From the NCBI GenBank assembly GCA_001544655.2, contig FCOD02000004.1:328796-392795 (forward strand): 64,000 nucleotides of DNA, read 5' to 3'. The notes below the pieces were generated by a model. It was not told the origin of the DNA, made no database searches, and saw nothing but the letters and a program-made list of their open reading frames with translations. A program made the translations under genes and the position numbers. Within the stretch, counting starts at the first letter, position 1; every line of letters starts with the position of its first letter. Below are positions 11,294 to 64,000 of the stretch, piece by piece. This DNA comes from Caballeronia turbans (GTDB lineage Bacteria; Pseudomonadota; Gammaproteobacteria; Burkholderiales; Burkholderiaceae).

Positions 11294-14200
11294 ATGAACA
11301 TTTCACATTTCTGCATTGACCGTCCCATTTTCGCGTCGGTCATTTCGATCGTCATCACGCTGGGCGGCGCGCTGACCATGCTCGCGCTGCCCACGGCGCA
11401 GTATCCCGACATCACGCCGCCGCAGATCACGATCTCCGCGACCTATCCGGGCGCGAGCGCGGACGTGGTCGCCAACAACGTCGCCGCGCCGATCGAGCAG
11501 CAGGTCAACGGCGCGGACAACATGATCTACATGAGCTCGTCGAGTTCGTCGACGGGCAACCTGACCATCAACGCGTACTTCCAGATCGGCACGAACCCGG
11601 AGCTCGCGCAGGTCGACGTGCAGAACCGCGTGAACCTCGCTTTGCCGCAACTGCCGCAGTCAGTGACGGCGCAGGGCGTGCAGGTGCAGAAGAAGTCGCA
11701 GGCGTTCATGATGGTCATCGCGATCTATTCGCCCGACGAACGCTACGACGCGACGTATATCGCCAACTACGCGAACGTGTATGTCCTCGACGCGCTCAAG
11801 CGGATTCCCGGCGCGAATCAGTCGAGCATCTTCGGCACGCCCGATTACGCGATGCGCATCTGGCTCAAGCCCGACCGCATGGCGCAACTCGGCATCACCG
11901 CCGCCGACGTCCAGCGCGCCGTCGCCAACCAGAACCAGCAGTTCGCCGTGGGCCGCCTCGGGCAATCGCCGACGGGCGCGCCTGTCGAGCAGTCCTTCGC
12001 GGTGACGACGACCGGGCGGCTCACCGAGCCCGCCGAGTTCGAGAACATCATCATTCGCGCGCAATCGGGCGGCGCCGCGATCGTGCGTCTGAAGGACGTG
12101 GGCCGCGCCGAGCTCGGGCAGAAAGACTATTCGATCCGCAGCCGCTTCCAGGGCAAATCGGCGACGGTGCTGGCCGTCTATCAGCAGCCGGGCGCGAACG
12201 CGCTCGACGTGTCGAAGCAGGTGCGCGCGTCGCTCGCCGAGATGAAGAAGACGTTCCCGCAGGGCATCGACTACGAAATCGCGATGGACACGACGGAGTT
12301 CACGCGCGCCTCCATCTCCGACGTGGTGCATACGTTCTTCGAAGCGGTCGTGCTGGTCGTCATCGTCGTGTTCGTGTTCCTGCAAAGCCTGCGTGCCACA
12401 TTGATTCCGGTGCTCGCGGTGCCGGTGTCGATCGTCGGCACGTTCATGGGCATGGAGGCCCTCGGCTTTTCCATCAACATGCTGACGCTGTTCGGCATGG
12501 TGCTTGCAATCGGCATCGTCGTGGACGATGCGATCGTCGTGATCGAGAACGTCGAGCGCAACATGACGGTGCACAAGCTCGATCCGAAGACCGCCGCCAA
12601 GAAGGCGATGGACGAAGTGGCCGGGCCGGTCGTGGCCATCGTGCTCGTGCTCTGCGCGGTGTTCGTGCCGGTGGCGTTCCTGAGCGGCATCACGGGGCAG
12701 ATGTACAAGCAGTTCGCCATCACGATCGCGATCTCGGTGGTGATCTCGGGTCTCGTCGCGCTGACCTTGTCGCCCGCGCTCGCCTCGTTGCTGCTCAAGC
12801 CCGGGCATCACGAGAAAAAAGGCTTTTTCCGCTGGTTCGATGCCCAGTTCATGCGCATGACGCACGGCTACACGAGCGTCGTGCGGCTCGTCATCAAGCG
12901 CTTCGCGATCGCGCTGCTGCTCTTCGCCGGCATGATCGCGCTCGCCGTCGTCATGATGCGCGACATACCGACCGCGTTCCTGCCGCCCGAGGATCAGGGT
13001 TATCTGCTCGGCGCGGTGATCATGCCCGATGCCGCATCGCTCGACCGCACCGGCGCGGTATCGGACCGCGTCACCGAATACTTCATGAAGCAGCCGGCGG
13101 TCGGCAGCATCACGACCGTCGATGGCTTCAGCATTCTCGATAGCCAGAACAAGAACAACTCGTCGACGTTCTTCGTCGGCTTCAAGAGTTTCGAGGAGCG
13201 CTACAAGTCGGACAATATCCGCACGCAGAATGCGCGCGCGGTGCTCGTCGACGCGTACAGGCATCTGTCGCAGATCAAGGAGGGCATCGTCGTGCCGTTG
13301 AATCCGCCGTCGATTCCGGGCCTGGGCACGACGGGCGGCACCGAGATGTGGATTCAGAGCAAGGGCGACGCGACCATCGGGCAGTTCGCGGCCCTCGTCG
13401 ACGATTTCGTCGCCAAGGCCAAGGCGCGCCCGGAGCTGACGGGAGTCACCTCGACCTTCAACGCGTCGTCGCAACAGATGCTCGCCAATGTCGATCGCGA
13501 CAAGGCCGAAACGCTCGGCGTGCCCGTCGAGGATGTCTACAGCGCCATGCAGACGATGTTCGGCTCGCTCTACGTGTCGCAGTTCAACCGGTCGAGCCGG
13601 CTCTGGCAGGTCATTCTGCAAGCGGAGCCGCAATACCGCCTGAAGCCGGACGACCTCACGCAGATCTTCGTGAAGAGCAAGAGCGGCGAGATGGTGCCGC
13701 TCAAGTCCATGGTCACGACGCGCTATGTGACGGGGCCCGATCTCATCACGCGTTTCAACAACTTTCCGGCGGTGAAGATCACGGCGAACGCCGCGCCCGG
13801 TTACGCGTCCGGACAGGTCATGCAGGCGCTGGAAGATATCGCGCGGGACCTGCCGTCGGACTACGGCATCGGGTGGAGCGGCGAGGCGTACGAGGCGAAG
13901 CAGTCGGGCAGTTCGTCGGCGCTCGTCTTCGTGTTCGGCCTGATCATGGTCTTCCTGATTCTCGCCGCGCAGTACGAGAAGTGGAGTCTGCCGTTCGGCG
14001 TGCTGATGGCGGTGCCGTTCGCGATCTTCGGCGCGCTGCTCGCCATTCTTCTGCGCGGCCTCAACAACGACGTGTACTTCCAGATCGGCCTGACGATGCT
14101 CGTCGCGCTCGCCGCGAAGAACGCGATTCTCATCTTCGAGTTCGCCGTGCTGAACCGCGAAGCGGGCGCGTCCGTGTACGACGCGGCGATGACCGCCGCC

Positions 14201-49932: not shown

Positions 49933-53234
<3,302 letters not shown>

Positions 53235-53235
<1 letters not shown>

Positions 53236-53900
53236 CAGGCCAGTCCCATCCTCGCGGCATACCTGACGAGGTCTACGTGATTCTCCACATGCAGCTTGCG
53301 CATGGCGGAACGCTTCTGGGTGGCGACCGTCGGCACCGAACGGTTCAGCGTCCGTGCGATTTCAGTCACGGAAAGCCCCTGCGCGAACAGCCGCACGACT
53401 TCCAGCTCGCGCGGCGAAAGCGGCTGCTCGCGCGCGAGGTCCTTCGTCGTCGAGCCTTCGCGCGCGAGACGGAGCTGGATCTTCGGTGAGAAGATCGTCT
53501 CTTTCGTGGCGAGCGCGCGCAGGCTGATCCGCGCAAGCTCGCTCGGCGGCTCTTCCTTGCTGACGATAGCCGCGACGCCGAGCTTGCACAACTCATGGAA
53601 CATGCCGCCGCTTGCCATCATCGTGAGGACGACGAGCGGGACATCGGGATGCGAGCGGCGCAGCATGCTCACGAGCCGCAAGCCGTCGAGTTCGACTTCC
53701 TCGTCGCCCTGCATGACGAGATCGGTGATGACGAGATCGGCCGGCTCTTTATCGAGCACGCGGATCAACTCCGCGCCCGAGTTCACCGTAGCCGTGATGA
53801 CGAAGCCGGGAAGCTTCGAGAACTGGTCGGAGACGGCCATGAGAACGATGGGATGGTCATCCGCCAGCACGACGCGAACCGTGCCCGTGTGCGCACTCAT
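53235..53900 (-). CDS. RcsB-like NarL/FixJ response regulator
   Basis: A 221-residue regulator with a receiver (VVLADDHPIVLMAV, phospho-Asp60 in VITDLVMQGDEE) and a LuxR-type helix-turn-helix (LSPRELEVVRLFAQGLSVTEIA...SVPTVATQKRSAMRKL). The DHPIVL, LVITDL and TVATQKRSAM-x-KL-x-VEN wording is very close to enterobacterial RcsB. The ATG at 53900 begins the conserved domain but lacks a strong ribosome site; the frame is open to 54125 without similarity. Coupled to the hybrid kinase (TGATG), which would phosphorylate it through its Hpt domain. Confidence 0.9.
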
Positions 53901-54121
53901 GGACACACCGCTCGCGGCGTCTTCGATAATTGATTCAGAAGTCGAAACAGACGCGCTGCTCGACGCGATCGATGCAACAGACGAACGGAACAGTGCATTG
54001 ACGCGCCCCCCGACCCGGCTGGAATAGAATGAGTATGTCTTAGGATACCGGGATTCGAATTCAAAGACTAGCGCTGAGCCTCGCATGTGCGCGAGCCCGC
54101 CGGACTCCAGAGCCGCATGGT

Positions 54122-54547
54122 TCATTTCCGGCCTTCACAGTAAACGTTGCAGGTGAAACAGCCAAGGCGCAGGCGCTTGGCACTAGAGCGGCACAGGCTG
54201 CAATTCGGCTTTGCGCCTTTCCATGGCTCGCCGCACGCATCGGATGCATCGTCCGCTTGCTGCGTGGTTCGGGCGAAATGATGCAGCGGCATCGACATGA
54301 CACGGGAACTCGCGCGCTTTCTGGTTTCACTGCCTCCGGCGACGAGCATGCAGGTGATCACGAGCATCGATCCGATAACGATGGCCGCGATCAGCACCAA
54401 TATCATCCACTCCGACGTTTTCAGGCAGAGCGCGGCGACGATGACGAACGACATGCCGACGAACATCGAAATCAAGAGCGCCGATGCGAATCCCGCTGCT
54501 TCACTACACTTCCGGAAGGCGTGGCTGATCGAATCTAAAACGAGCAT
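54122..54547 (-). CDS. Small membrane protein with Cys-rich tail, unknown
   Basis: A 141-residue frame with two strong hydrophobic helices (ALLISMFVGMSFVIVAALCL and MILVLIAAIVIGSMLVITCML) and a basic tail holding six cysteines (SDACGEPW, CSLCRSS, CFTCNVYC). The CxxC pairs suggest a zinc- or disulfide-bound knuckle. AGGTG lies 6 bases before the ATG. I do not recognise a family; it could be a real orphan or chance. It sits upstream of the response regulator on the same strand. Confidence 0.5.
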   Translation of the reverse strand: MLVLDSISHAFRKCSEAAGFASALLISMFVGMSFVIVAALCLKTSEWMILVLIAAIVIGSMLVITCMLVAGGSETRKRASSRVMSMPLHHFARTTQQADDASDACGEPWKGAKPNCSLCRSSAKRLRLGCFTCNVYCEGRK

Positions 54548-54977
54548 AAGGGCACCTGGCTAGCAATGCGGCGTGCAAAGGATGACGCGACCGTCTCCCG
54601 ATCAGCGATGCATTGCGCGTCGAAGCGCAGCCGCCACCGGCATCGCGCACACGAGGCCTTGCGTCAACGCCTTGGTCTGGATCGCATCACTGTAGTCAAA
54701 CGCGACAGGACCATGTATCGAACAATGTCGATAACGTGCGGCACCGCGAGGCACACACCGTTTCGATCGTCGAAACCGTCCCGCTTTAAAAAAAAAACCG
54801 CCTGGATAAGGCGGCAATCTGGGCCGAAGCAAGGTCGGATGTCCTGACGGGGCGGCGCGCGAAAGGTTCGACACGCGACGCGCCTTTCCCGAGCTTTACC
54901 GCTTGCCTTCATTTTCAAACGTCGAGGACGCAGCAGCTATAGATGGAATTCGATTCGCGACGAACGCCATCGCGCGC
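54548..54977. other. Intergenic stretch at the left border of the glycosylation island
   Basis: About 430 bases with no convincing gene and lower GC than the flanks. It holds one terminator (54788-54814, minus strand) that ends the island operon. The remaining frames are short and lack ribosome sites. Confidence 0.6.
54788..54814 (-). terminator. Terminator of the TpsB-NGT operon
   Basis: On the minus strand a CCGCCT / AGGCGG stem with a 5-base loop is followed by an uninterrupted run of ten U. It lies 164 bases after the last gene of the operon (stop at 54978). Confidence 0.85.
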
Positions 54978-55298
54978 TCAGTTAAACCGCATGCCGAGCC
55001 ACAAGTGCGTCATCACGCCGAGCGCGAGCCCCATCAGACGGCCGACGAACATGGCGTCGAGGGCGGGCTCGCGATCATGGAAAGAGCGGCGCGGGTTCCT
55101 GCGCCCCGCCGTCAGCGCGGGCCGCGCGAATACGATGCACGTTGCCCCCGCTATGCCGATCAACGCGCGCTGCGGGGCCGTACACGCGCTGCACGCACGG
55201 TGAACGAAGTCGGCAAGCCAAAGCAGCACGCCCGTTGCAAGCATGAAGTTGCAGACGAAGCTCGCGAAAACGCGGCCGACAGAAACGCGTTCCTTCAT
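54978..55298 (-). CDS. Small membrane protein coupled to the glycosyltransferase fusion
   Basis: A 106-residue protein with two or three hydrophobic segments (VFASFVCNFMLATGVLLWLADFV, ALIGIAGATCIVFA and VGRLMGLALGVMTHLWLG). Its ATG overlaps the stop of the fusion gene by 4 bases (ATGA, 55295-55298), so it is translationally coupled and belongs to the island. Two cysteines sit between the first spans (CSAC). No family is recognised. It might anchor or assist the enzymes at the membrane, but this is only suggested by gene order. Confidence 0.72.
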   Translation of the reverse strand: MKERVSVGRVFASFVCNFMLATGVLLWLADFVHRACSACTAPQRALIGIAGATCIVFARPALTAGRRNPRRSFHDREPALDAMFVGRLMGLALGVMTHLWLGMRFN

Positions 55299-57061
55299 GC
55301 GGCCTCGCGCGATGCGTTCTCGTCCAGCAGACACCGCAAGTGTCCGCCGATGCGCGCGACGACTTCCGACCAGTCGCAACCGAAGCGGCGGCGGAACAGG
55401 CGCATCGTCGGATACCAGGGGCTGTCTTCACGCGTGTAGTGCCAGCGCCAGTCGCCATAGGACGGCAACATCAGCCACACCGGTTTGCCCATCGCGCCCG
55501 CGACGTGCGCAACCGACGTATCGACGGTCAGCACGAGATCGAGTGCCGCGATCACGCTCGCCGTTTCCGCCATCGTGTTGAGATGCGCGCCCACGTCGTG
55601 GAAGTTCCCGCGCTGCTCCGCGTACTCAGCGGCCTCGTCGGCGCCCGCGCCCTTCTGCAGGCTGAAGAATTCGATGCCGTCTACCTTGAAGAGATCGTTC
55701 AGCACGGCAAGCGACGGGAGCGAGCGGCTGGCGTCGTTCTCGTGCGTCGGGTTGCCCTTGAATACGATGCCGACCTTCAGCTTCCCGGGCGCGACCTCGG
55801 GCAGCTTCGATGCAACGGCTTCCGGCGCACGCAGATAAGGCACGGTCGGCGGCAGCGCATCGAGTTCGAGCGGCAGTTGCGCGGGAATCGCGTGCGGGAA
55901 CACCCAGTAATCGATTCCTGACAGGTTCGCCGCGTCCCGCACGTCTACGACATCGCCGGCATCGAGCGACGCTTCGTAAAGCTCGACGAGCGGCGCCTGA
56001 CACACGACGACCACGCGCTTCGCGCCGCAACGCTCGCGCATGATCTTCGCGAAGCGCAGAAAGAAGATCTCGTCGCCGAGGCCGAACTCGCTCCAGATGG
56101 CGATGGACTTGCCGCTCAACGATTCGCCCTTCCACTCCGGCACGTCGCGCGGAGGCTGCGTGGTGGTGCGGCGTTTCCATCCCAGCGGGCCCATCAGCGC
56201 TTCTCGGAGAGCGAAGCCTTCGTGCAGCTTGCCTCGCGCGATGAGGTGCAATGCTTCGTAAAGACGCGGCAAATGTTCGCCGGGCAGGCGCTCCACGCAC
56301 TGCTTCCATATCGCGTCGGCATGCTCGGGCGCATCCCAGCGCAGCAGCGCCAACATCGCCTGATGGTAGATGTCGAAGCGGTACGGATACTGGCGCACCG
56401 CTGCCTGCGCCGCGGCGATGGCATCGCGGGCGTTGCGCGCGTGCCCGATCGCGTGCTTCAGCGCTTGCGGCGTGGCCACTGCGCGCTTGCGCAGCACGAT
56501 TTCGATGACGCATTCGGCATGACTGTCGGCGGTCTGGTCGGCGTCGCGTCTGGCGGCATCGAAGTGGTCGCGCACGAGCGCGATACGTTCGCAATCCGCC
56601 ACGGGCGACATCGCCTGCACCATGTCGAGCACGTTCACCGATCGCGGCAGCATCTTCTCGGCCTTGTGGATCGTGAAGCTCGCCTTGTGCGCGCTGTTGA
56701 AGCGGTTCGGCCAGACGCCCTTGCCGTAGAGATCTTCGTCCGGCACGGTCACGATGACATGGCCGCCCGGCTTCACGAGTTCGAGCCAGCGCGCGAGCGC
56801 CTTGTGAGGATTCTGCTGCCCGGCCAGCACGTGACTGGCATGCAGGAAATCGAACGCCGCTTCGTCGGCTCCGCTCATCGACGACAGATCGCCCTTCGTG
56901 GCGGACCATGACGTCACGTTGCGCAAACGCGGAAAGACGTGTGCATGCGATGCGAGGGAATCATCGGCGCTGCAGATGTCGATGCCGTCGCCCACGAAAT
57001 AGTGCTGGATGAATGCCGGTTCGCGCGAACGGCGCAGACTTGCCTTGCTGGTTTCTTTCAT
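55295..57061 (-). CDS. Methyltransferase-TPR-glycosyltransferase fusion protein
   Basis: A 588-residue cytosolic protein of three parts. Residues about 20-195 look like a class I SAM methyltransferase (VGDGIDICSADD; LELVKPGGHVIVTVPDEDLYG), although the glycine motif is weak. Residues about 205-300 are TPR-like helices. Residues about 315-580 resemble the glycosyltransferase part of TPR/GT9-like proteins (IWSEFGLGDEIFFLRF; VGIVFKGNPTHEND; LVLTVDTSVAHVAGAMGKPVW). It lies 7 bases after the HMW1C-like gene and overlaps the next gene. A role in extending or capping the glycan added by HMW1C-like enzymes is an attractive inference. Confidence 0.82.
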   Translation of the reverse strand: MKETSKASLRRSREPAFIQHYFVGDGIDICSADDSLASHAHVFPRLRNVTSWSATKGDLSSMSGADEAAFDFLHASHVLAGQQNPHKALARWLELVKPGGHVIVTVPDEDLYGKGVWPNRFNSAHKASFTIHKAEKMLPRSVNVLDMVQAMSPVADCERIALVRDHFDAARRDADQTADSHAECVIEIVLRKRAVATPQALKHAIGHARNARDAIAAAQAAVRQYPYRFDIYHQAMLALLRWDAPEHADAIWKQCVERLPGEHLPRLYEALHLIARGKLHEGFALREALMGPLGWKRRTTTQPPRDVPEWKGESLSGKSIAIWSEFGLGDEIFFLRFAKIMRERCGAKRVVVVCQAPLVELYEASLDAGDVVDVRDAANLSGIDYWVFPHAIPAQLPLELDALPPTVPYLRAPEAVASKLPEVAPGKLKVGIVFKGNPTHENDASRSLPSLAVLNDLFKVDGIEFFSLQKGAGADEAAEYAEQRGNFHDVGAHLNTMAETASVIAALDLVLTVDTSVAHVAGAMGKPVWLMLPSYGDWRWHYTREDSPWYPTMRLFRRRFGCDWSEVVARIGGHLRCLLDENASREAA

Positions 57062-57068
57062 GTTTACC

Positions 57069-58937
57069 TCACTTCGCTTCGGTTACCGCAACGCGTGCCT
57101 GGGCACCATGCAGATTTTTCAACAGCGCCTGAATGCGCTCGCCGAGAATCTCGGGACGTCCCTTGAAAATCAGCTTCTCGATGGCTTTTTTGCCTGCGAG
57201 CGTCCGCGCGAGATCGCGCCGCTCGCTTTCGTTTTCGATGAGGCGCAGCGCCGCCGCCTTGTAGTCTTGCGTCGTGCCGGCGATGGTCCATTCCGGAAAG
57301 CCGAGACGGCGGAACATGCCTTCGTCGATGTGCTCGTGCACTTCGCGCCCCGTCTTGCATACGCCGACGAGCCCCGCCCACACCGTGTCCACGATGCCGT
57401 TCGTGTTGCCGAACGGGAACGGGTTCAGGAACATGTCGCAACCCGCGATCACCTTCATGTAGCTCGCGTAGTCCTGATGCTTGTGCACCACGGCCTTGTC
57501 GCCCATCAGGCGGTGCACGAGGTTGCGCACCTGCGGGAACGTGAGGCCCGTCGCCTGACCGACGAGAAAGTGAAACTCGACAGGCACCGGCGCTTCATTG
57601 GCGATCTCCGCGCACGTTTGCAGGAAGCCGGGATTGAGCTTGATGGTCGTGCCCGCGACAGCGATCTTCACGGGGTCGGCCTTGAGGCGCTTGCGCTTGG
57701 GCAGATCGAGTTCGAGCATCGCCGCAGGCGGACGATACGGCATGCCGTCCGAAGGCAGCTTGAGCAGCTTCTCGCTGAAGCACGCTTCGTCGCCTACGTA
57801 GTCTTCTTCGACGACCACGTAGTCCATCGCATGACCGTGCGTCGTCGCGGGATGACCGAGCGCCATCATCTGCAGGGGCGCGACGCGCAGGCACGCCAGC
57901 GCCATCGTGGTCGGGAACATGCCGACGCTCGGCATGTACATCGCCTGAGCCTGACGCGCTTCGCTCACTTCGCGCACCTGGCGCACGTGCTCCCACAGAT
58001 TGGCGCCCGCGAGCGGAATGAATTCGTCGAATACTTCGCGGCCTGTTTCGTCGACGCGGCCTTCATAGCCCATGCCGACGAGATGAAACTTGTCGCGCAT
58101 CGCCACCATCGTCTGCGAGTGCGTGCGATAGATCGAATGATTCTTCGAGAACCATTCGAGCACGACGAGCAGCACGGGCTTGTCGTCCCTGGCGGCCGGT
58201 TGCGCAGCGCGTTCGACATCGTGAATGCCGAGGTTCGCGAGCTTGCTGCGAATCAGCGTATTGATGGGCTTCTTGATGTCGTGCTTGCCCGGCAGGTCCG
58301 CATAGCTGCAATGCATGTACATGTCGTGCAGCACGCCGAACGGGAGCATGTCGATGCTCTCGATCTGGTCGAGCTTGCCGGGCAGCCAGCGCAGCAGCAT
58401 TTCGCGCTTCTGATGCGCGGCGGGCGTGCCGAGAAAGCGCGAGGACATGATGGTCGTCGCGAGACTCGCCGTGGCGATCTTGTCGTGATTCCAGAGAACG
58501 TCCCAGTCGAGCCGCACTTCGGACTCGGGCGTGTAGAACAACTGGAACTTGCGCATGTCGCCGGCGCGCAGTTGCACGGAGTGCCGCGCTTCTTCGTCGA
58601 GACCGAGCGTGCGGAGAATGTGATCGGCGTTGCGGAACGGACTCGCCGCGAAGAGGCCCGCGAGCCAGCGCTGAAACACCTGCGCCTGACGGATGCCGAC
58701 GTCGGACAGCTGAAAGTCCGGATCGCTCATCAGCGCCGTGATGGCCGACGTGATCCGCGTGAGCAGGTGGTCATCCATGATGTTCGCCGCTTCCGAGGAC
58801 TGCGCCCAGCTATCTACGTTCATGAGAAGGCCGTAGTTCTCGTCGATTCTCGCGAGCAACTTCAACAGCTCACGGCCAGCGGCTTCCTTTTCGCGGCGAT
58901 AGCAGAGGTACTCGAACTTGTTGATGCTGAATTGCAT
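57069..58937 (-). CDS. HMW1C-like cytoplasmic N-glycosyltransferase (copy 1)
   Basis: A 622-residue GT41-family enzyme, the usual length for HMW1C/ApNGT. An all-helical N-terminal domain precedes a GT-B fold. Residues equivalent to the UDP-hexose site of the Actinobacillus enzyme (recalled as Thr438, Lys441, His495, Asn521, Asp525) are seen in GTTIKLNPGF (near 428), KHQDYASYM (near 487) and FPFGNTNGIVD (near 510); CKTGREVHEHIDEG follows. Such enzymes attach hexoses to Asn in N-X-S/T sequons of adhesins in the cytoplasm before export. It follows the TpsB gene by 68 bases. The start is ATG 58937 (MQFSINKFEYLCYR); upstream frame is open but dissimilar. Confidence 0.92.
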   Translation of the reverse strand: MQFSINKFEYLCYRREKEAAGRELLKLLARIDENYGLLMNVDSWAQSSEAANIMDDHLLTRITSAITALMSDPDFQLSDVGIRQAQVFQRWLAGLFAASPFRNADHILRTLGLDEEARHSVQLRAGDMRKFQLFYTPESEVRLDWDVLWNHDKIATASLATTIMSSRFLGTPAAHQKREMLLRWLPGKLDQIESIDMLPFGVLHDMYMHCSYADLPGKHDIKKPINTLIRSKLANLGIHDVERAAQPAARDDKPVLLVVLEWFSKNHSIYRTHSQTMVAMRDKFHLVGMGYEGRVDETGREVFDEFIPLAGANLWEHVRQVREVSEARQAQAMYMPSVGMFPTTMALACLRVAPLQMMALGHPATTHGHAMDYVVVEEDYVGDEACFSEKLLKLPSDGMPYRPPAAMLELDLPKRKRLKADPVKIAVAGTTIKLNPGFLQTCAEIANEAPVPVEFHFLVGQATGLTFPQVRNLVHRLMGDKAVVHKHQDYASYMKVIAGCDMFLNPFPFGNTNGIVDTVWAGLVGVCKTGREVHEHIDEGMFRRLGFPEWTIAGTTQDYKAAALRLIENESERRDLARTLAGKKAIEKLIFKGRPEILGERIQALLKNLHGAQARVAVTEAK

Positions 58938-59005
58938 GATTCCGTTCCGGTTGTTACTGCACATGAGGTTCGCCCGCTGGCCTCGCGCCAGAGCGGACCG
59001 CGCGA

Positions 59006-60727
59006 TCAGTGGTTCCAGGTGACCGAGAGCCAGTACTGCGTCGGCTTCTTGCCGGGCTCCACCCATGAGGTCTCGGAGAAGCGATACGGTCGCGATACGG
59101 ACGCGGACACCGTCGCGCCGAAGGGCGTCAGCCAGTCGACGCTCACGCCGTAGCCGGCGAGCACGCGGTTGTTGGTCACGCCGTCCACGCCGGGATACGT
59201 GGTCTCCCATCCATCCCACGGCGAGTGATTCACGCGCCCATACGCGAAGTCGCTGAAGACGCCCAGCTGAATCTGATGGCCGGTTGCAACGGGGATGCGT
59301 TGATAGAGGCCGACGCTCGCGACGACACCTTCATCGGCGGAACCTTCGTCGGCGCGGTAGGCGCGTACGGCGTCGGGACCGGCAAGGCCGAGTTTCTCGC
59401 TCGCGTCCAGATTGCGGCTCGCGAGCTGACCGGTGACGCGGCCCGAAACAAAGGTGTTGCCGCTCTTCGAAAGCGCGAAGGTGCCGAAGTCCGTGGTGGT
59501 CAGTTTTGCGTAGTTGCCCGCGCGCTGCGTGATCGGGTCCGAGGGATCGTCGTTGCGTTGATGCCCGAACGTCAGCGCGATCTGCCCCGCCGCGAGATTG
59601 GTGCGCAGGGCGCGGGCGCGTTCGCCGTTATCCGCGGTCAGCGAGAGCTGCACCGAATCGAGCTTGCTGTGTGACGTTGCGCCGAAATCCTTGAAGTCCG
59701 TCGAGGTCTGACTGTGCAGCAGCGATGCGCCGCCCCACACGTTGGCGTCGAGGCCGCGCGCGAACGGATACTGCACGCCGGCCTGCCCCGTCGTCGCCAC
59801 GCCCTTGACCGGCGTTCCCGCGTTGATGAAATATTGCTGACGCGTGACGCCGCCGGTCATGCGCAGGCCGTCATCGAAGATCGGCGCGCTACCCGTCAGG
59901 GCGCCCGTCCACATTTTCTTGTCCGTGCTGGTGATCGTGAACGCATAGGCGTCGCCGGCGCCGAACAGATTGTTCGCCGATGCCGTCACGCCCATCCGGT
60001 ACGTCCCCGTCGATTCGACACCCTTGTTGTCGAGGATCAGATCGACCTGGGCGGGCTTGCCGTTCTGCGCGATGTTGAACACGACATCGACTTCGCCGGT
60101 GCTCGCGCCCCGCGAGAAACGCGGCGCGCCGTCGATCGCGACGCCGGGAACGTCCTGCAGCAGTTGCGTCGCACGCTCGAGCCGCGATGTGCGCAACAGG
60201 CACGCGCCCTCCACGCCGTCACTGCCGCATAGCGCATGCGTGATGAGCCGTTGCAGCCGCGCATCCGCGACGCGCGATTTGTTGTTGACGACGATGTGGC
60301 GGATACGCCCCGGAAACACCGTGAATTGCGCCTGGGCGCCCTTCTGTGCTGCGCGCCAGTCGGCATCCGTCATCAGCACCAGAGCGAGCGGAAAGCCGCT
60401 CTGACGCAATGACGCGGTGAGCACGTCCGACCAGCGATCGACTTCCTTCAACGTGCCCGGCGCATCGCCGAGCTTCCTGATATCCGCGGCGACCAGTTGC
60501 TTCACCAGCAGCGCATCGGCACCTTGCGCCGGCACCACCTTCACGCTCACGCCGCTTTCGCTCGCCGCCGTGTCTGCCTTGACGGGCATCGCCTTCTGAA
60601 CCACCGCTTCTGCATCGGTGACTTCCGATGCCATCACGCGCTCCGCACCCGCCATGCCAGCCAGCACCACCGATCCGACACACACCAGGCGGCGGGCCGC
60701 TTCCGCAATCTCGTTCATCTTCAACAT
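59006..60727 (-). CDS. TpsB/HMW1B-like two-partner secretion transporter
   Basis: A 573-residue outer-membrane transporter of the ShlB/FhaC/HecB family. A signal peptide (VCVGSVVLAGMAGAERVMA) leads to a short linker, POTRA-like domains (about 75-220) and a 16-stranded barrel. The conserved substrate-loop motif is present as GPDAVRAYRADEG near 455, and the protein ends WLSVTWNH. It exports a TpsA exoprotein through the outer membrane. ATG 60727 has AAGGA 8 bases upstream; GTG 60730 and ATG 60718 are alternatives. It lies between two HMW1C-like genes, unlike the hmwA-hmwB-hmwC order. Confidence 0.92.
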   Translation of the reverse strand: MLKMNEIAEAARRLVCVGSVVLAGMAGAERVMASEVTDAEAVVQKAMPVKADTAASESGVSVKVVPAQGADALLVKQLVAADIRKLGDAPGTLKEVDRWSDVLTASLRQSGFPLALVLMTDADWRAAQKGAQAQFTVFPGRIRHIVVNNKSRVADARLQRLITHALCGSDGVEGACLLRTSRLERATQLLQDVPGVAIDGAPRFSRGASTGEVDVVFNIAQNGKPAQVDLILDNKGVESTGTYRMGVTASANNLFGAGDAYAFTITSTDKKMWTGALTGSAPIFDDGLRMTGGVTRQQYFINAGTPVKGVATTGQAGVQYPFARGLDANVWGGASLLHSQTSTDFKDFGATSHSKLDSVQLSLTADNGERARALRTNLAAGQIALTFGHQRNDDPSDPITQRAGNYAKLTTTDFGTFALSKSGNTFVSGRVTGQLASRNLDASEKLGLAGPDAVRAYRADEGSADEGVVASVGLYQRIPVATGHQIQLGVFSDFAYGRVNHSPWDGWETTYPGVDGVTNNRVLAGYGVSVDWLTPFGATVSASVSRPYRFSETSWVEPGKKPTQYWLSVTWNH

Positions 60728-60927
60728 CACACGTATCCTTGCATTGAACCAAAACGCCTGAACGTCGCGTCTGGTTCATCAACCTTTGTCCGCGTATCGT
60801 TCTCAGAACAAAGGTTAAGGATTGAGGTGCTTTGATCGAATAGAACAAGTTCTAAAGTACCGTCCAGCAGGGCTGAAACGCTGCATTTCGATGCTGCTTT
60901 CACCCGCAGGCACGCTTCGAATGCAAA

Positions 60928-60951
60928 GAACCCGGCGCGATGGCCGGGTTC
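60928..60951 (-). terminator. Terminator after NGT copy 2
   Basis: A 9-bp perfect stem, GAACCCGGC / GCCGGGTTC, with a 6-base loop lies 31 bases after the glycosyltransferase stop. On the minus strand a short U-rich run (TTCTTTG) follows. It separates this gene from the TpsB operon. Confidence 0.7.
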
Positions 60952-60981
60952 CTGATTCCTCGATGCGACTGACGCGTTCGT

Positions 60982-62856
60982 TTATGCGAGCGCTTCGGCA
61001 CGCTCGGCTTGTTTGACGTTGCCGCTTCGCAGTTGCGCTTGCCAGAGCGCCTGCATGCGCTCGCCGAGAATCTCCGGCCGGCCCTTGAAAATGAGCTTTT
61101 CGATAGCCTGCGGTCCCGCGAGCTTCGCGGCCAGTTCATTGCGCTCGTCGGCGTTCCCGATCAGGCGCAACGCCGCAGCCTTGTACTCTTCGGTGGTCCT
61201 GGCGACCATCCATTCGGGAAAGCCCAGGCGGCGGAACATGCCTTCGTCGATGTGTTCGTGCACTTCGCGCCCCGTCTTGCACACACCGACGAGCCCCGCC
61301 CACACCGTGTCCACGATGCCGTTCGTGTTACCGAACGGGAACGGATTGAGGAACATGTCGCAGCCGGAGATCACCTTCATGTAGCTGCCGTAGTTCTGGT
61401 GCTTGTGAACCGTCGCCTTGTCGCCCATCAGGCGGCGCACGAGATTGCGCACCTGCGGATAAATGAGGCCGTTGGCCTGCCCCATGAGAAAGTGGAAATG
61501 CACCGGCACTTTCGACTCCCGCGCGATCTCCGCGCACGTGTTCAGGAAGCCGGGGTTCTGCTTGATGGTCGTGCCGGCCACGGCGATCTTCACGACGCCG
61601 TCCGGAGCCTGCTTCGGCGGCAATTCGAGTTTGAGCAGCGCCGCAGGCGCACGATACGGCATGCCGTCCGAGGGCAGCTTCAGCAGTTTTTCGCTGAAGC
61701 ACGCTTCGTCACCGACGTAATCTTCCTCGACGACGACATAGTCCATTGCATGACCGTGCGTCGTGGCCGGATGACCGAGGGCCATCATCTGCAGCGGTGC
61801 GACGCGCAAACATGCCAGCACCATCGTGATCGGGAACATGCCGACGCTCGGCATGTACATCATCTGGGCATTGCGCTCTTCGCTCGACTGGCGAACATGC
61901 TTGGCGACCTCCCAGAGGTTTGCGCCTTGCAGCGGGATGAACTCGTGGAACACTTCCTTGCCCGCATCATCGACACGGCCTTCATAGCCCATGCCGACGA
62001 GATGGAACTTGTCGCGCATCGCCACCATCGTCTGCGAATGCGTGCGATAGATCGAGTGATTCTTCGAGAACCATTCGAGCACGACGAGCAGCACGGGTTT
62101 TTCGCCCTGTTCGACCGCTTGCGCACGGCGTTCGACATCGTGGATGCCGAGGCTCGCGAGCTTGCGGCGAACCAGCGTATTGATGGGCTTCTTGATGTCG
62201 TGCTTGCCCGGCAGGTCGGCATAGCTGCAGTGCATGTACATGTCGTGGAAAACGCCCATCGGCAGCACGTCGACGCTTTCGACTTCGGCAAGACGCTCGG
62301 GCAGCCAGCTCAGCAGCATCTCACGCTTGGCGTGTGCGGAAGGCGTCGCGAGAAAGCGCGAGGACATGATCGTCGTGGCCATGCTGGCCGTCATCACCTT
62401 GTCGTGCTTCCAGAGCAGGTCCCAGTCGAGGCGAACTTCCGACTCCGGCAGATAAAAAAGCTGGAACTTGCGAAACTCATTGTTGCGCAGTTCGAGGGAA
62501 TTGCGCGATTCCTCGTTCGCGCTGAGCGAACGGAGGATGTGGTCCGCGTTGCGGAACGAGCTGGCGGCGAACAGCGCGGCGAGCCATCGCTGAAACAGCA
62601 TCAGTTTGCCGATGCCGTGGTCTGAAATAGTGAATTTCGGATCGGACGCCAGTGCCGTGATCGCGGAAGTGAGGCGCGTGAGCAGGTGGTCGTCCATGAT
62701 GTCGCGCGCTTCGGCGGATTGCGCCCACGTGTCGACGTCCATGAGAACACCGTAATTCTGGTCGATCTTGTTGAGCAGTTCGAGAAGCATGCGACTCGCC
62801 TTCTCGTATTCGCGGCGATAACAGAGGTGTTCAAACTTTGCGATGCTGAATTTCAT
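60982..62856 (-). CDS. HMW1C-like cytoplasmic N-glycosyltransferase (copy 2)
   Basis: A 624-residue paralogue of the gene at 57069-58937, collinear over its whole length. The sugar-nucleotide site motifs are intact (GTTIKQNPGF near 428; KHQNYGSYM; FPFGNTNGIVD near 510), so both copies look active. Differences are concentrated in the helical N-terminal domain and the last 20 residues. AGGAA lies 7 bases before ATG 62856. It sits between the exoprotein and TpsB genes with terminators on both sides, so it is probably its own transcription unit. Whether the two copies differ in sugar or acceptor choice is unknown. Confidence 0.92.
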   Translation of the reverse strand: MKFSIAKFEHLCYRREYEKASRMLLELLNKIDQNYGVLMDVDTWAQSAEARDIMDDHLLTRLTSAITALASDPKFTISDHGIGKLMLFQRWLAALFAASSFRNADHILRSLSANEESRNSLELRNNEFRKFQLFYLPESEVRLDWDLLWKHDKVMTASMATTIMSSRFLATPSAHAKREMLLSWLPERLAEVESVDVLPMGVFHDMYMHCSYADLPGKHDIKKPINTLVRRKLASLGIHDVERRAQAVEQGEKPVLLVVLEWFSKNHSIYRTHSQTMVAMRDKFHLVGMGYEGRVDDAGKEVFHEFIPLQGANLWEVAKHVRQSSEERNAQMMYMPSVGMFPITMVLACLRVAPLQMMALGHPATTHGHAMDYVVVEEDYVGDEACFSEKLLKLPSDGMPYRAPAALLKLELPPKQAPDGVVKIAVAGTTIKQNPGFLNTCAEIARESKVPVHFHFLMGQANGLIYPQVRNLVRRLMGDKATVHKHQNYGSYMKVISGCDMFLNPFPFGNTNGIVDTVWAGLVGVCKTGREVHEHIDEGMFRRLGFPEWMVARTTEEYKAAALRLIGNADERNELAAKLAGPQAIEKLIFKGRPEILGERMQALWQAQLRSGNVKQAERAEALA

Positions 62857-63015
62857 CTTTCGGTTCCTGGTCGTTTGTTCCGATGCGCCTCTGGCCGCTG
62901 TTTCGCTCGTGCCTCGCGACTGCCTGGCGCTGACAAGGAGAAGATTAAGGTTTCGACCGGACCTCACGAATAGAAGAAGTTCTAATTTCGCGGCGCGAAT
63001 GTCGCGAGCGGGCAC

Positions 63016-63042
63016 AAAAAAGCCCGGCGCAAAGGCCGGGCT
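63016..63042 (-). terminator. Terminator of the exoprotein gene
   Basis: On the minus strand AGCCCGGC / GCCGGGCT (8 bp, 6-base loop) is followed by TTTTTT. It lies about 100 bases after the exoprotein stop at 63144. Confidence 0.9.
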
Positions 63043-63143
63043 CGATACTGCGTAAAACGGGCGATGCATCGTTTCTCATGCAAGGAAACGCTGCCCCGCC
63101 CCGATTCACACGACGAGCGTGCTACTGCTCGTCGTGCGCATCA

Positions 63144-64000
63144 TCAGGCGCGTCCGCCCGCTTCGGCCACGGTGGAATGACCATGAACCGCCATGCCCGG
63201 CTTGAGCCAGCCATGCGACTTGACGACATACGGCTTGCCGTCCTTCACGCCGCTCTCCGTGTAGAAGTATTCGCGCGTGTTCATGTTCACCGACAGGTCC
63301 GCCTTGGTCTGCTTCTTGTCGTCTTCGAACGCGTAGTGCTTCACGCCGTCCGCGCCGTCACGATATTGCATGTGACGCGACAGTAGGCCCGCGCGGGTCA
63401 GCAGATCGACATCCGCCGTCTCGGTGGTCAGGTCGATCGAGACTTGCTCGACGGTTGCATCCGTCCAGAAAGCCGCGTCGCCCAGTTCCATCGTCAGCGG
63501 TTGCGCTTCGTCCAGATACATGTGCATCGCGCTTTCGTAGATCAGGTACGACAGACCCCCTGCCAGACCGACACCGCCGACAATGGCCGCCGCCGTGCCG
63601 CCCGCCGAACTGCCCGAGCCGCCGTGAGCATCGGTGTTGCCACCGTTGTCCGTGCCACCGCCGTTAGCGCCGCCGTTATCCCCACCATTCGTGCCGCCGT
63701 TGTTGCCACCGTTCGCGCCACCGTTGGTGCCACTGTCGGTGCCGCCGTTTTGGTTCTGGCCGCCGCTACCCGTATGCCTGATATCGCCGTTGTCGATCAC
63801 GTTCACCGTACCGTTGCCGTCGGTGTTGTACGTGCCGTTGTCGTCGATCACGCCCTGGCCGTTGGTCGAATTGCCCGAGATGTTCGTCGTGCCGTTGTCC
63901 GAGGTGTTGATCGTGCCATCGTTGATCACGCCCGTGCCGTTGGTCGAGTTACCCGAGATATTCGTCGTGCCGTTGTCGGTCGTGTTGATCGTCGCGTTCG
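63144..64000 (-). CDS. Large repetitive exoprotein (TpsA-like adhesin), C-terminal part
   Basis: The gene runs off the right edge; 285 codons are visible. The order is: Asn/Thr/Gly-rich repeats (NGTTNISGNSTNG units, period 26 residues), a Gly/Asn/Thr/Asp linker (GGTNGGDNGG-type, about 63600-63780), a hydrophobic Gly/Ala-rich segment (AAAIVGGVGLAGGLSYLIY) and a soluble C-terminal domain of about 130 residues ending AEAGGRA. Twelve N-X-S/T sequons lie in the first about 62 visible residues, none in the C-terminal domain. Location upstream of HMW1C- and HMW1B-like genes suggests a glycosylated TPS exoprotein. The N-terminal TPS domain, which would prove it, is outside. Confidence 0.8.
   Translation of the reverse strand, partial: NATINTTDNGTTNISGNSTNGTGVINDGTINTSDNGTTNISGNSTNGQGVIDDNGTYNTDGNGTVNVIDNGDIRHTGSGGQNQNGGTDSGTNGGANGGNNGGTNGGDNGGANGGGTDNGGNTDAHGGSGSSAGGTAAAIVGGVGLAGGLSYLIYESAMHMYLDEAQPLTMELGDAAFWTDATVEQVSIDLTTETADVDLLTRAGLLSRHMQYRDGADGVKHYAFEDDKKQTKADLSVNMNTREYFYTESGVKDGKPYVVKSHGWLKPGMAVHGHSTVAEAGGRA
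63858..64000. repeat. 78-bp coding tandem repeats in the exoprotein gene
   Basis: A 78-base unit starts at 63858 and again at 63936 (GCCGTTGGTCGA), nearly identical; the second copy is cut by the window edge. Each encodes 26 residues of the form TINTSDNGTTNISGNSTNG plus seven more. More copies probably lie to the right. Confidence 0.85.

Follow-up and report, generated by a model that had tools for sequence, protein, structure and literature searches.

Why should a two-partner secretion (TPS) locus carry two genes for HMW1C-type N-glycosyltransferases and, beside them, a gene in which a methyltransferase-like domain is fused to yet another glycosyltransferase? The question is raised by one end of a 64,000-nucleotide stretch of Caballeronia turbans DNA (assembly GCA_001544655.2, contig FCOD02000004.1, positions 328,796 to 392,795 of the forward strand; hereafter the window), where these genes stand together with those of an exoprotein (TpsA) and its outer-membrane transporter (TpsB). 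No simpler machinery for protein N-glycosylation is known than the HMW1C enzymes, which also serve as tools. The exoprotein of this locus is probably N-glycosylated in the cytoplasm before export, and the locus is a real, enlarged variant of the hmwABC and etpBAC systems. It extends a known adhesin system and directs attention to a little-known family of helper enzymes.

Gene content and order

Six open reading frames (ORFs) occupy positions 54978-63998, all on the minus strand, in the order tpsA 3′ end, HMW1C_1, tpsB, HMW1C_2, fusion, small ORF; the 5′ part of tpsA lies on another contig of the same assembly, C93.

C93 (L063), 12172-13783: tpsA 5′ part
63144..63998, minus strand: 3′ portion of tpsA (284 codons), truncated by the end of the contig at 64000
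63765..63998, minus strand: sequon-rich repeats of TpsA, 12 N-X-S/T per 78 residues
63192..63533, minus strand: TpsA C-terminal domain, conserved, sequon-free, predicted small beta barrel
60982..62856, minus strand: HMW1C_1, GT41 N-glycosyltransferase-like, 624 aa, in the tpsA/tpsB interval
59006..60730, minus strand: tpsB, outer-membrane transporter, ShlB/FhaC family, 574 aa
57069..58937, minus strand: HMW1C_2, GT41 N-glycosyltransferase-like, 622 aa, 78% identical to HMW1C_1
55295..57061, minus strand: fusion of a methyltransferase-like domain (residues 1-195), TPR-like helices (198-290) and a GT9 GT-B domain (318-580)
54978..55379, minus strand: small hydrophobic ORF, 133 aa, overlapping the 3′ end of the fusion gene

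A preliminary description of this DNA had placed six genes side by side on a single strand in this order, which the coordinates and Pfam families bear out, and the results below likewise support its reading as a TPS system that has a pair of HMW1C-like enzymes and a repeat protein with very many N-X-S/T sites. Its term "island" finds no support in base composition (the locus bins have a GC of 0.60-0.64, the remaining window 0.61-0.72), and a genomic island was rejected on this ground. The classic Haemophilus hmwABC locus, as the same description noted, has one glycosyltransferase, whereas this one has two HMW1Cs, and its order, A-C-B-C-fusion, departs from the three-gene hmwABC type with a single HMW1C after tpsB. 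The gap between tpsB and HMW1C_2 is 68 bases and that between HMW1C_2 and the fusion gene 7 bases, while HMW1C_1 is flanked on each side by about 250-290 bases; the two HMW1C genes probably start at 62856 (HMW1C_1) and 58937 (HMW1C_2). The locus is larger than six genes: downstream follow a further small ORF and the genes of a response regulator and a hybrid kinase, and two response-regulator genes precede tpsA on C93.

The N-glycosyltransferase-like enzymes

Both HMW1C proteins match, above the curated cut-offs, the Pfam families HMW1C_N and HMw1_D2 (E 2.6e-22 to 1.6e-25) and Glyco_transf_41 (29.4 and 25.5 bits, cut-off 25), and over their full length they are accounted for by AAD domains and a GT41 GT-B fold. 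The closest solved structures to both are the N-glycosyltransferases 8p0q, 3q3e and 8j30 (E 1e-164 to 1e-173), that is, AaNGT, ApHMW1C and one further N-glycosyltransferase. According to the portion of PMC10507012 used here, the AaNGT mutants R177A and D215A are inactive and H214A is weakened; in a model, L368 and N520 touch the donor sugar. Both enzymes of the window retain the equivalents of all five residues (Arg, His, Asp, Leu and Asn), as do 45 of 50 homologue rows, a set that includes the same genome from two collections. Two rows of a distant type differ at the equivalents of R177, H214 and D215, in an alignment that at 37% identity is unsure. In the three other rows, from two genomes (C. 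cordobensis and P. piptadeniae), Ser replaces D215, always in the copy between tpsA and tpsB. These Asp-to-Ser copies lie at L076 5988-7850 and L079 2862-4739, and the Asp is the residue that reads the Ser/Thr of the sequon. Such natural HMW1C pairs, some without the sequon-reading residue, offer natural tests of how these enzymes choose their sites.

Distant-type HMW1C-like proteins (35-39% identity) occur in about 15 genomes of the genus (e.g., L060, L061 and L062), and in the three stretches read the TPS genes of this locus are absent. Pieces of another HMW1C-like gene lie on a further contig of the same genome (C23:32109-32827, L064).

The exoprotein and its transporter

The gene of the exoprotein, a very large surface protein, is truncated where the contig ends at window base 64000. 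Its other half was found on C93, where a TPS domain (PF05860, 128 bits, cut-off 33.5) and an ESPR match (37 bits, cut-off 25) are followed, up to the contig end, by repeats with 77-91% matches to those of the window. Four TPS domains occur in the genome (7.35 Mb, 120 contigs), all on contigs other than that of the window, and none of 14 control genomes gave a match. A single contig of C. novacaledonica carries the locus between homologues of C93 1052-10300 on one side and of about 40.9-49.7 kb of the window on the other; because of this synteny and the shared repeats, we take C93 and the window contig (C59) as neighbours. The TPS domain that the preliminary description had proposed to look for beyond the window is therefore present, on C93 and tied to the window by repeats and synteny. 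On C93 the TPS ORF and the repeat ORF are in different reading frames, a change that may be real or an assembly error.

The repeats are packed with sequons: 12 in 78 residues in the window (shuffles 4.7 ± 1.6) and 34 in 183 residues on C93 (shuffles 13.2 ± 2.6), or 15-19 per 100 residues, z-scores from such counts being inflated as repeat units are not independent. The TPS ORF has 2 sequons in 354 residues and the C-terminal part none in 206, and the three other TPS proteins of the genome stand at the level of shuffled composition (z −0.7, −0.9 and 0.8). Among orthologue ORFs, filtered beforehand to exclude those with <200 aa or <8 sequons, z is at least 3.0 in 21 of the 23 listed, the remaining two being L127 (1.5) and L119 (1.4).

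The C-terminal domain occurs in 20 of 299 genomes of the family, 18 of which have an HMW1C match as against 32 of the 279 others, a co-occurrence that is partly circular, HMW1C-anchored loci having been the source of the domain model. Pfam gave only chance-level matches to the domain, each in 1 of 19 members; in structure searches Foldseek ranked lipocalins first (E 3e-4, TM 0.36) and VIA-align the fHbp/NHBA barrels. The transporter matches Pfam ShlB (PF03865) at 51 bits (cut-off 22.7). In GAFFF1 (L043/L065) an inverted piece of tpsA with an operator palindrome lies inside the locus, possibly an invertible segment or an assembly artefact.

Is the second HMW1C redundant?

The first of two rival explanations that survive about equally well takes the second HMW1C for a dosage duplicate, with the same specificity as the first, serving an exceptionally sequon-rich substrate. 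We regard this as a fair contender that is somewhat less likely to be right than wrong. The five key residues are the same in both window enzymes, and over residues 200-300 the identity of the pair at 4-fold sites is 0.92-0.96, compared with 0.35-0.71 in the other 13 windows; this tract looks like gene conversion, which would keep the acceptor region alike. The ancestry of HMW1C_1 argues the other way. The tree made for this question had 37 rows, namely the window pair and 35 of the 50 tblastn rows left after removal of duplicates and distant sequences. In it, the tpsA/tpsB-interval copies of the window, 8Y, GAFFF1 and G048 join the single-copy enzyme of Paraburkholderia C35 (98/99) and not with HMW1C_2, so HMW1C_1 as a simple local tandem duplicate of HMW1C_2 was rejected. 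The Asp-to-Ser change in the same-placed copies of C. cordobensis and P. piptadeniae likewise suits divergence.

Those two copies fall near the copies after tpsB in their own genomes, and occupation of the interval needs three changes on the tree. A single clade uniting the six interval copies, and with it one shared origin for them, was rejected (p-AU 7e-8; approximately unbiased test); the rejection is only weak when confined to C. cordobensis and P. piptadeniae (p-AU 0.022). Trees of this kind can be misled by gene conversion, and the tree of the N-terminal part only is poorly resolved.

The fusion protein: extension of the core sugar or a separate activity?

The fusion matches Methyltransf_23, Methyltransf_11 and Glyco_transf_9 (23.8 bits, cut-off 22) in Pfam, each above its curated cut-off, its N-terminal domain keeps the class I S-adenosylmethionine (SAM) methyltransferase fold, and its GT9 part has a GT-B fold. 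The PDB sequence search returned only weak methyltransferase matches and chance rows for it; Foldseek placed O-GlcNAc transferases first (E 4.9e-8, TM 0.23) and VIA-align GT9. SAM motif I is a glycine-rich GxG that follows an acidic residue. In the window it reads IDICSADD, with both glycines replaced; GxG is kept in 16 of the 46 fusion rows read and in none of the TPS-type fusions of the 11 Caballeronia genomes read. The homologue of P. rhynchosiae has the motif intact. An active methyltransferase in this strain was rejected on the degenerate motif, and the suggestion that the hexose is methylated before export is not supported, although the fold is kept; this part may be a pseudo-enzyme or use another cofactor.

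That the fusion belongs to the system follows from its position within 1.5 kb of an HMW1C in 24 of 35 named loci (some of them fragments). It is more likely a second glycosyltransferase for exported proteins, and it is plausible that its GT9 part would extend the core hexose. The second well-surviving rival explanation holds that the exported protein receives sugar straight from the GT9 part (O-linked, TibC-like), independently of HMW1C products, and we give it a substantial minority chance. Direct action on protein fits too, because a fusion paralogue follows immediately after flgK-flgL and because some loci have the fusion and lack a near-type HMW1C (L111 and L116). The paralogue stands on the same strand at L110 4287-5948, on contig C64 of this genome, with similar cases in L112 and L122-L125, and is possibly a glycosyltransferase of flagellar proteins. 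The fusion would be a new kind of enzyme in protein glycosylation, and this paralogue gives a direct prediction.

A broader proposal, which we advance tentatively and would sooner doubt than defend, is that exported filamentous proteins receive an unrecognised second layer of glycosylation in the cytoplasm: that the methyltransferase-TPR-GT9 family is protein-directed, with one branch for HMW1C-modified TpsA proteins and another for flagellar junction or filament proteins, that TpsA bears a mixed coat laid down by two N-glycosyltransferases and GT9, and that the N-glycosyltransferase in the tpsA/tpsB interval was recruited repeatedly and sometimes re-aimed by the Asp-to-Ser change. In L129 (6346-10758) a methyltransferase part is combined with multiple TPR and GT9 parts in a 1471-aa protein encoded close to a tpsB-like gene, in a stretch where the window HMW1Cs have no match.

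Candidate operator and terminator-like sites

Regulatory features of the locus are as follows.

63020..63043, minus strand: intrinsic-terminator-like hairpin 3′ of tpsA
62971..62985, minus strand: palindromic operator candidate TTAGAACTTCTTCTA 5′ of HMW1C_1
60928..60951, minus strand: terminator-like hairpin 3′ of HMW1C_1
60841..60855, minus strand: palindromic operator candidate TTAGAACTTGTTCTA 5′ of tpsB
54797..54815, minus strand: terminator-like hairpin with a long T run 3′ of the small ORF, also in 8Y and GAFFF1

The palindrome TTAGAACTT[C/G]TTCTA lies 110-115 bases 5′ of HMW1C_1 and of tpsB, and these are its only exact sites in the 7.35-Mb genome (control 0). A copy with one mismatch stands upstream of tpsA on C93, and the operator probably precedes this gene as well. 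In relatives, 46 sites with at most two mismatches were counted in 1.08 Mb of partly redundant loci, a count made with no shuffle control; 45 of them lie within 900 bases 5′ of a system gene, mostly 105-270 before tpsA, tpsB or HMW1C. A weaker palindrome precedes the upstream response regulator in four relatives and not in the window genome, and the one-HMW1C Paraburkholderia and Cupriavidus loci have no site within two mismatches. The regulators show RcsB-like similarity, below equivalog cut-offs, and because of it the response regulators are the likely readers of the palindrome. A hairpin-T site follows tpsA in 9 of the 11 tpsA 3′ gaps examined, and a promoter scan found 0 where 1.7 were expected. 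As a locus-specific operator, the palindrome would be a way of learning when soil bacteria and bacteria associated with insects or plants make such coats.

Proposed mechanism and points against it

How might these parts work together? From catalysis and sugar identity to export and regulation we infer the following course. TpsA would be made as a long chain that starts with an extended signal peptide and the TPS domain, continues into a lengthy repeat region packed with sequons and finishes in a small C-terminal domain. Both HMW1Cs would then move hexose from a UDP-sugar onto Asn residues of the N-X-S/T sequons in the repeats, so that the TPS and C-terminal domains stay unmodified, and the GT9 domain of the fusion would attach a second sugar, either onto that hexose or onto the protein itself, its methyltransferase part probably no longer acting as such here. 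TpsA would cross the inner membrane by Sec and leave through TpsB. Expression would be set by the kinase and response regulators near the locus, acting via the palindromic operator before HMW1C_1, tpsB and probably tpsA, and the terminators would split the transcription units, such that TpsA and the enzymes are made in different amounts.

Several results weigh against this picture. Both HMW1Cs fall under the cut-off of the NCBIfam N-glycosyltransferase equivalog NF049992 (674.2 and 673.8 versus 1000 bits), and they are best described as members of the family not filed as equivalogs. TpsB has no POTRA model among its Pfam matches at E 0.1 and no match in the PDB sequence search. The tpsA copy of the palindrome, taken alone, is near chance (14 of 200 shuffles), and the 10-kb region as a whole has no excess of terminator-like sites (7 found against 8.6 expected). 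TpsA itself is discontinuous in this assembly, through the contig break and the C93 frame change, and a single ORF runs from TPS to C-terminal domain in just 3 of 11 Caballeronia loci (C. cordobensis, G040 and G050). In the remaining loci tpsA is inverted (GAFFF1), split, truncated, lacking parts or interrupted by a contig break; because several of these genomes have few contigs, some breaks need not be assembly errors, and the TpsA system may be decaying or phase-variable.

The weakest rival, that the locus is decaying in Caballeronia and the glycoprotein is no longer made in this strain, is unlikely: the C93 frame change, the truncated, inverted, split or missing tpsA of most of the 11 Caballeronia loci, the degenerate SAM motif and HMW1C remnants in G039, G050, G040, G005 and on contig C23 would fit it, whereas HMW1C_1, HMW1C_2, tpsB and the fusion gene are open and 82-93% identical to relatives, operators and terminators are retained, and short-read assembly across repeats can produce such breaks.

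Distribution and known systems

Within the genus, 30 of 58 genomes have an HMW1C match, 12 a near-type one and 5 two full-length near-type copies. A scan of named genomes gave 35 near-type loci, 28 of them with tpsA or tpsB; gene counts at loci are lower bounds, as some contigs end nearby. In Burkholderiaceae the core of tpsA, tpsB, HMW1C and fusion is found repeatedly, in most cases with a single HMW1C. Two full-length HMW1Cs occur in 5 named loci, in the order A-C-B-C in Caballeronia GAFFF1, 8Y, C. cordobensis and P. piptadeniae, and as B-C-C in P. antibiotica.

Known systems share parts of this plan, as far as the sections of the cited papers used here describe them. Haemophilus influenzae hmw1ABC/hmw2ABC likewise encodes TpsA, TpsB and a cytoplasmic HMW1C together, with a sequon-bearing exoprotein and an unglycosylated TPS pro-piece, a region nearly sequon-free here (PMC3983070); the present locus differs in its two HMW1Cs, one between tpsA and tpsB, its fusion and its two-component genes. 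HMW1 is anchored by a C-terminal disulfide (PMC3983070), while the TpsA C-terminus in the window has no cysteine. Similar by its genes is etpBAC of enterotoxigenic Escherichia coli, with a heavily N-hexosylated repeat exoprotein and the HMW1C-like EtpC; unlike here, it has one glycosyltransferase, a different gene order and no fusion (PMC11100705). HMW1C-like genes adjoining TPS genes in Burkholderia spp., where a predicted HMW1C-like glycosyltransferase is named in the text (PMC3983070, PMC11100705), most likely represent the same locus family with one HMW1C. In the Actinobacillus pleuropneumoniae operon of NGT and the alpha-6-glucosyltransferase Agt, a second glycosyltransferase lengthens the N-linked glucose, but it is a GT4 and not a GT9 enzyme, and tpsA and tpsB are absent (PMC12159676). 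TibC/BAHT O-heptosyltransferases (PMC4358343) resemble the fusion in their GT-B GT9-like fold and type V secreted substrate; they lack the methyltransferase and TPR parts, and the fold score of the fusion is lower to TibC than to WaaF/WaaC. Searches of the open-licence literature returned nothing on two HMW1Cs per TPS locus or on a methyltransferase-TPR-GT9 fusion.

Neighbouring genes

The genes downstream of the six are the following.

54122..54547, minus strand: second small ORF, 141 aa, 46-57% identity in several Caballeronia loci
53235..54125, minus strand: LuxR-type response regulator
49933..53235, minus strand: hybrid histidine kinase (HisKA, HATPase_c, receiver, Hpt)

NCBIfam gave no match for the small ORFs, TpsB or the exoprotein 3′ part, and the 133-aa ORF has no Pfam match either. 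Apart from the loci named next, tblastn found no match to this ORF in the loci examined; its homologues are 56-66% identical in five Caballeronia loci and 32% identical in P. piptadeniae.

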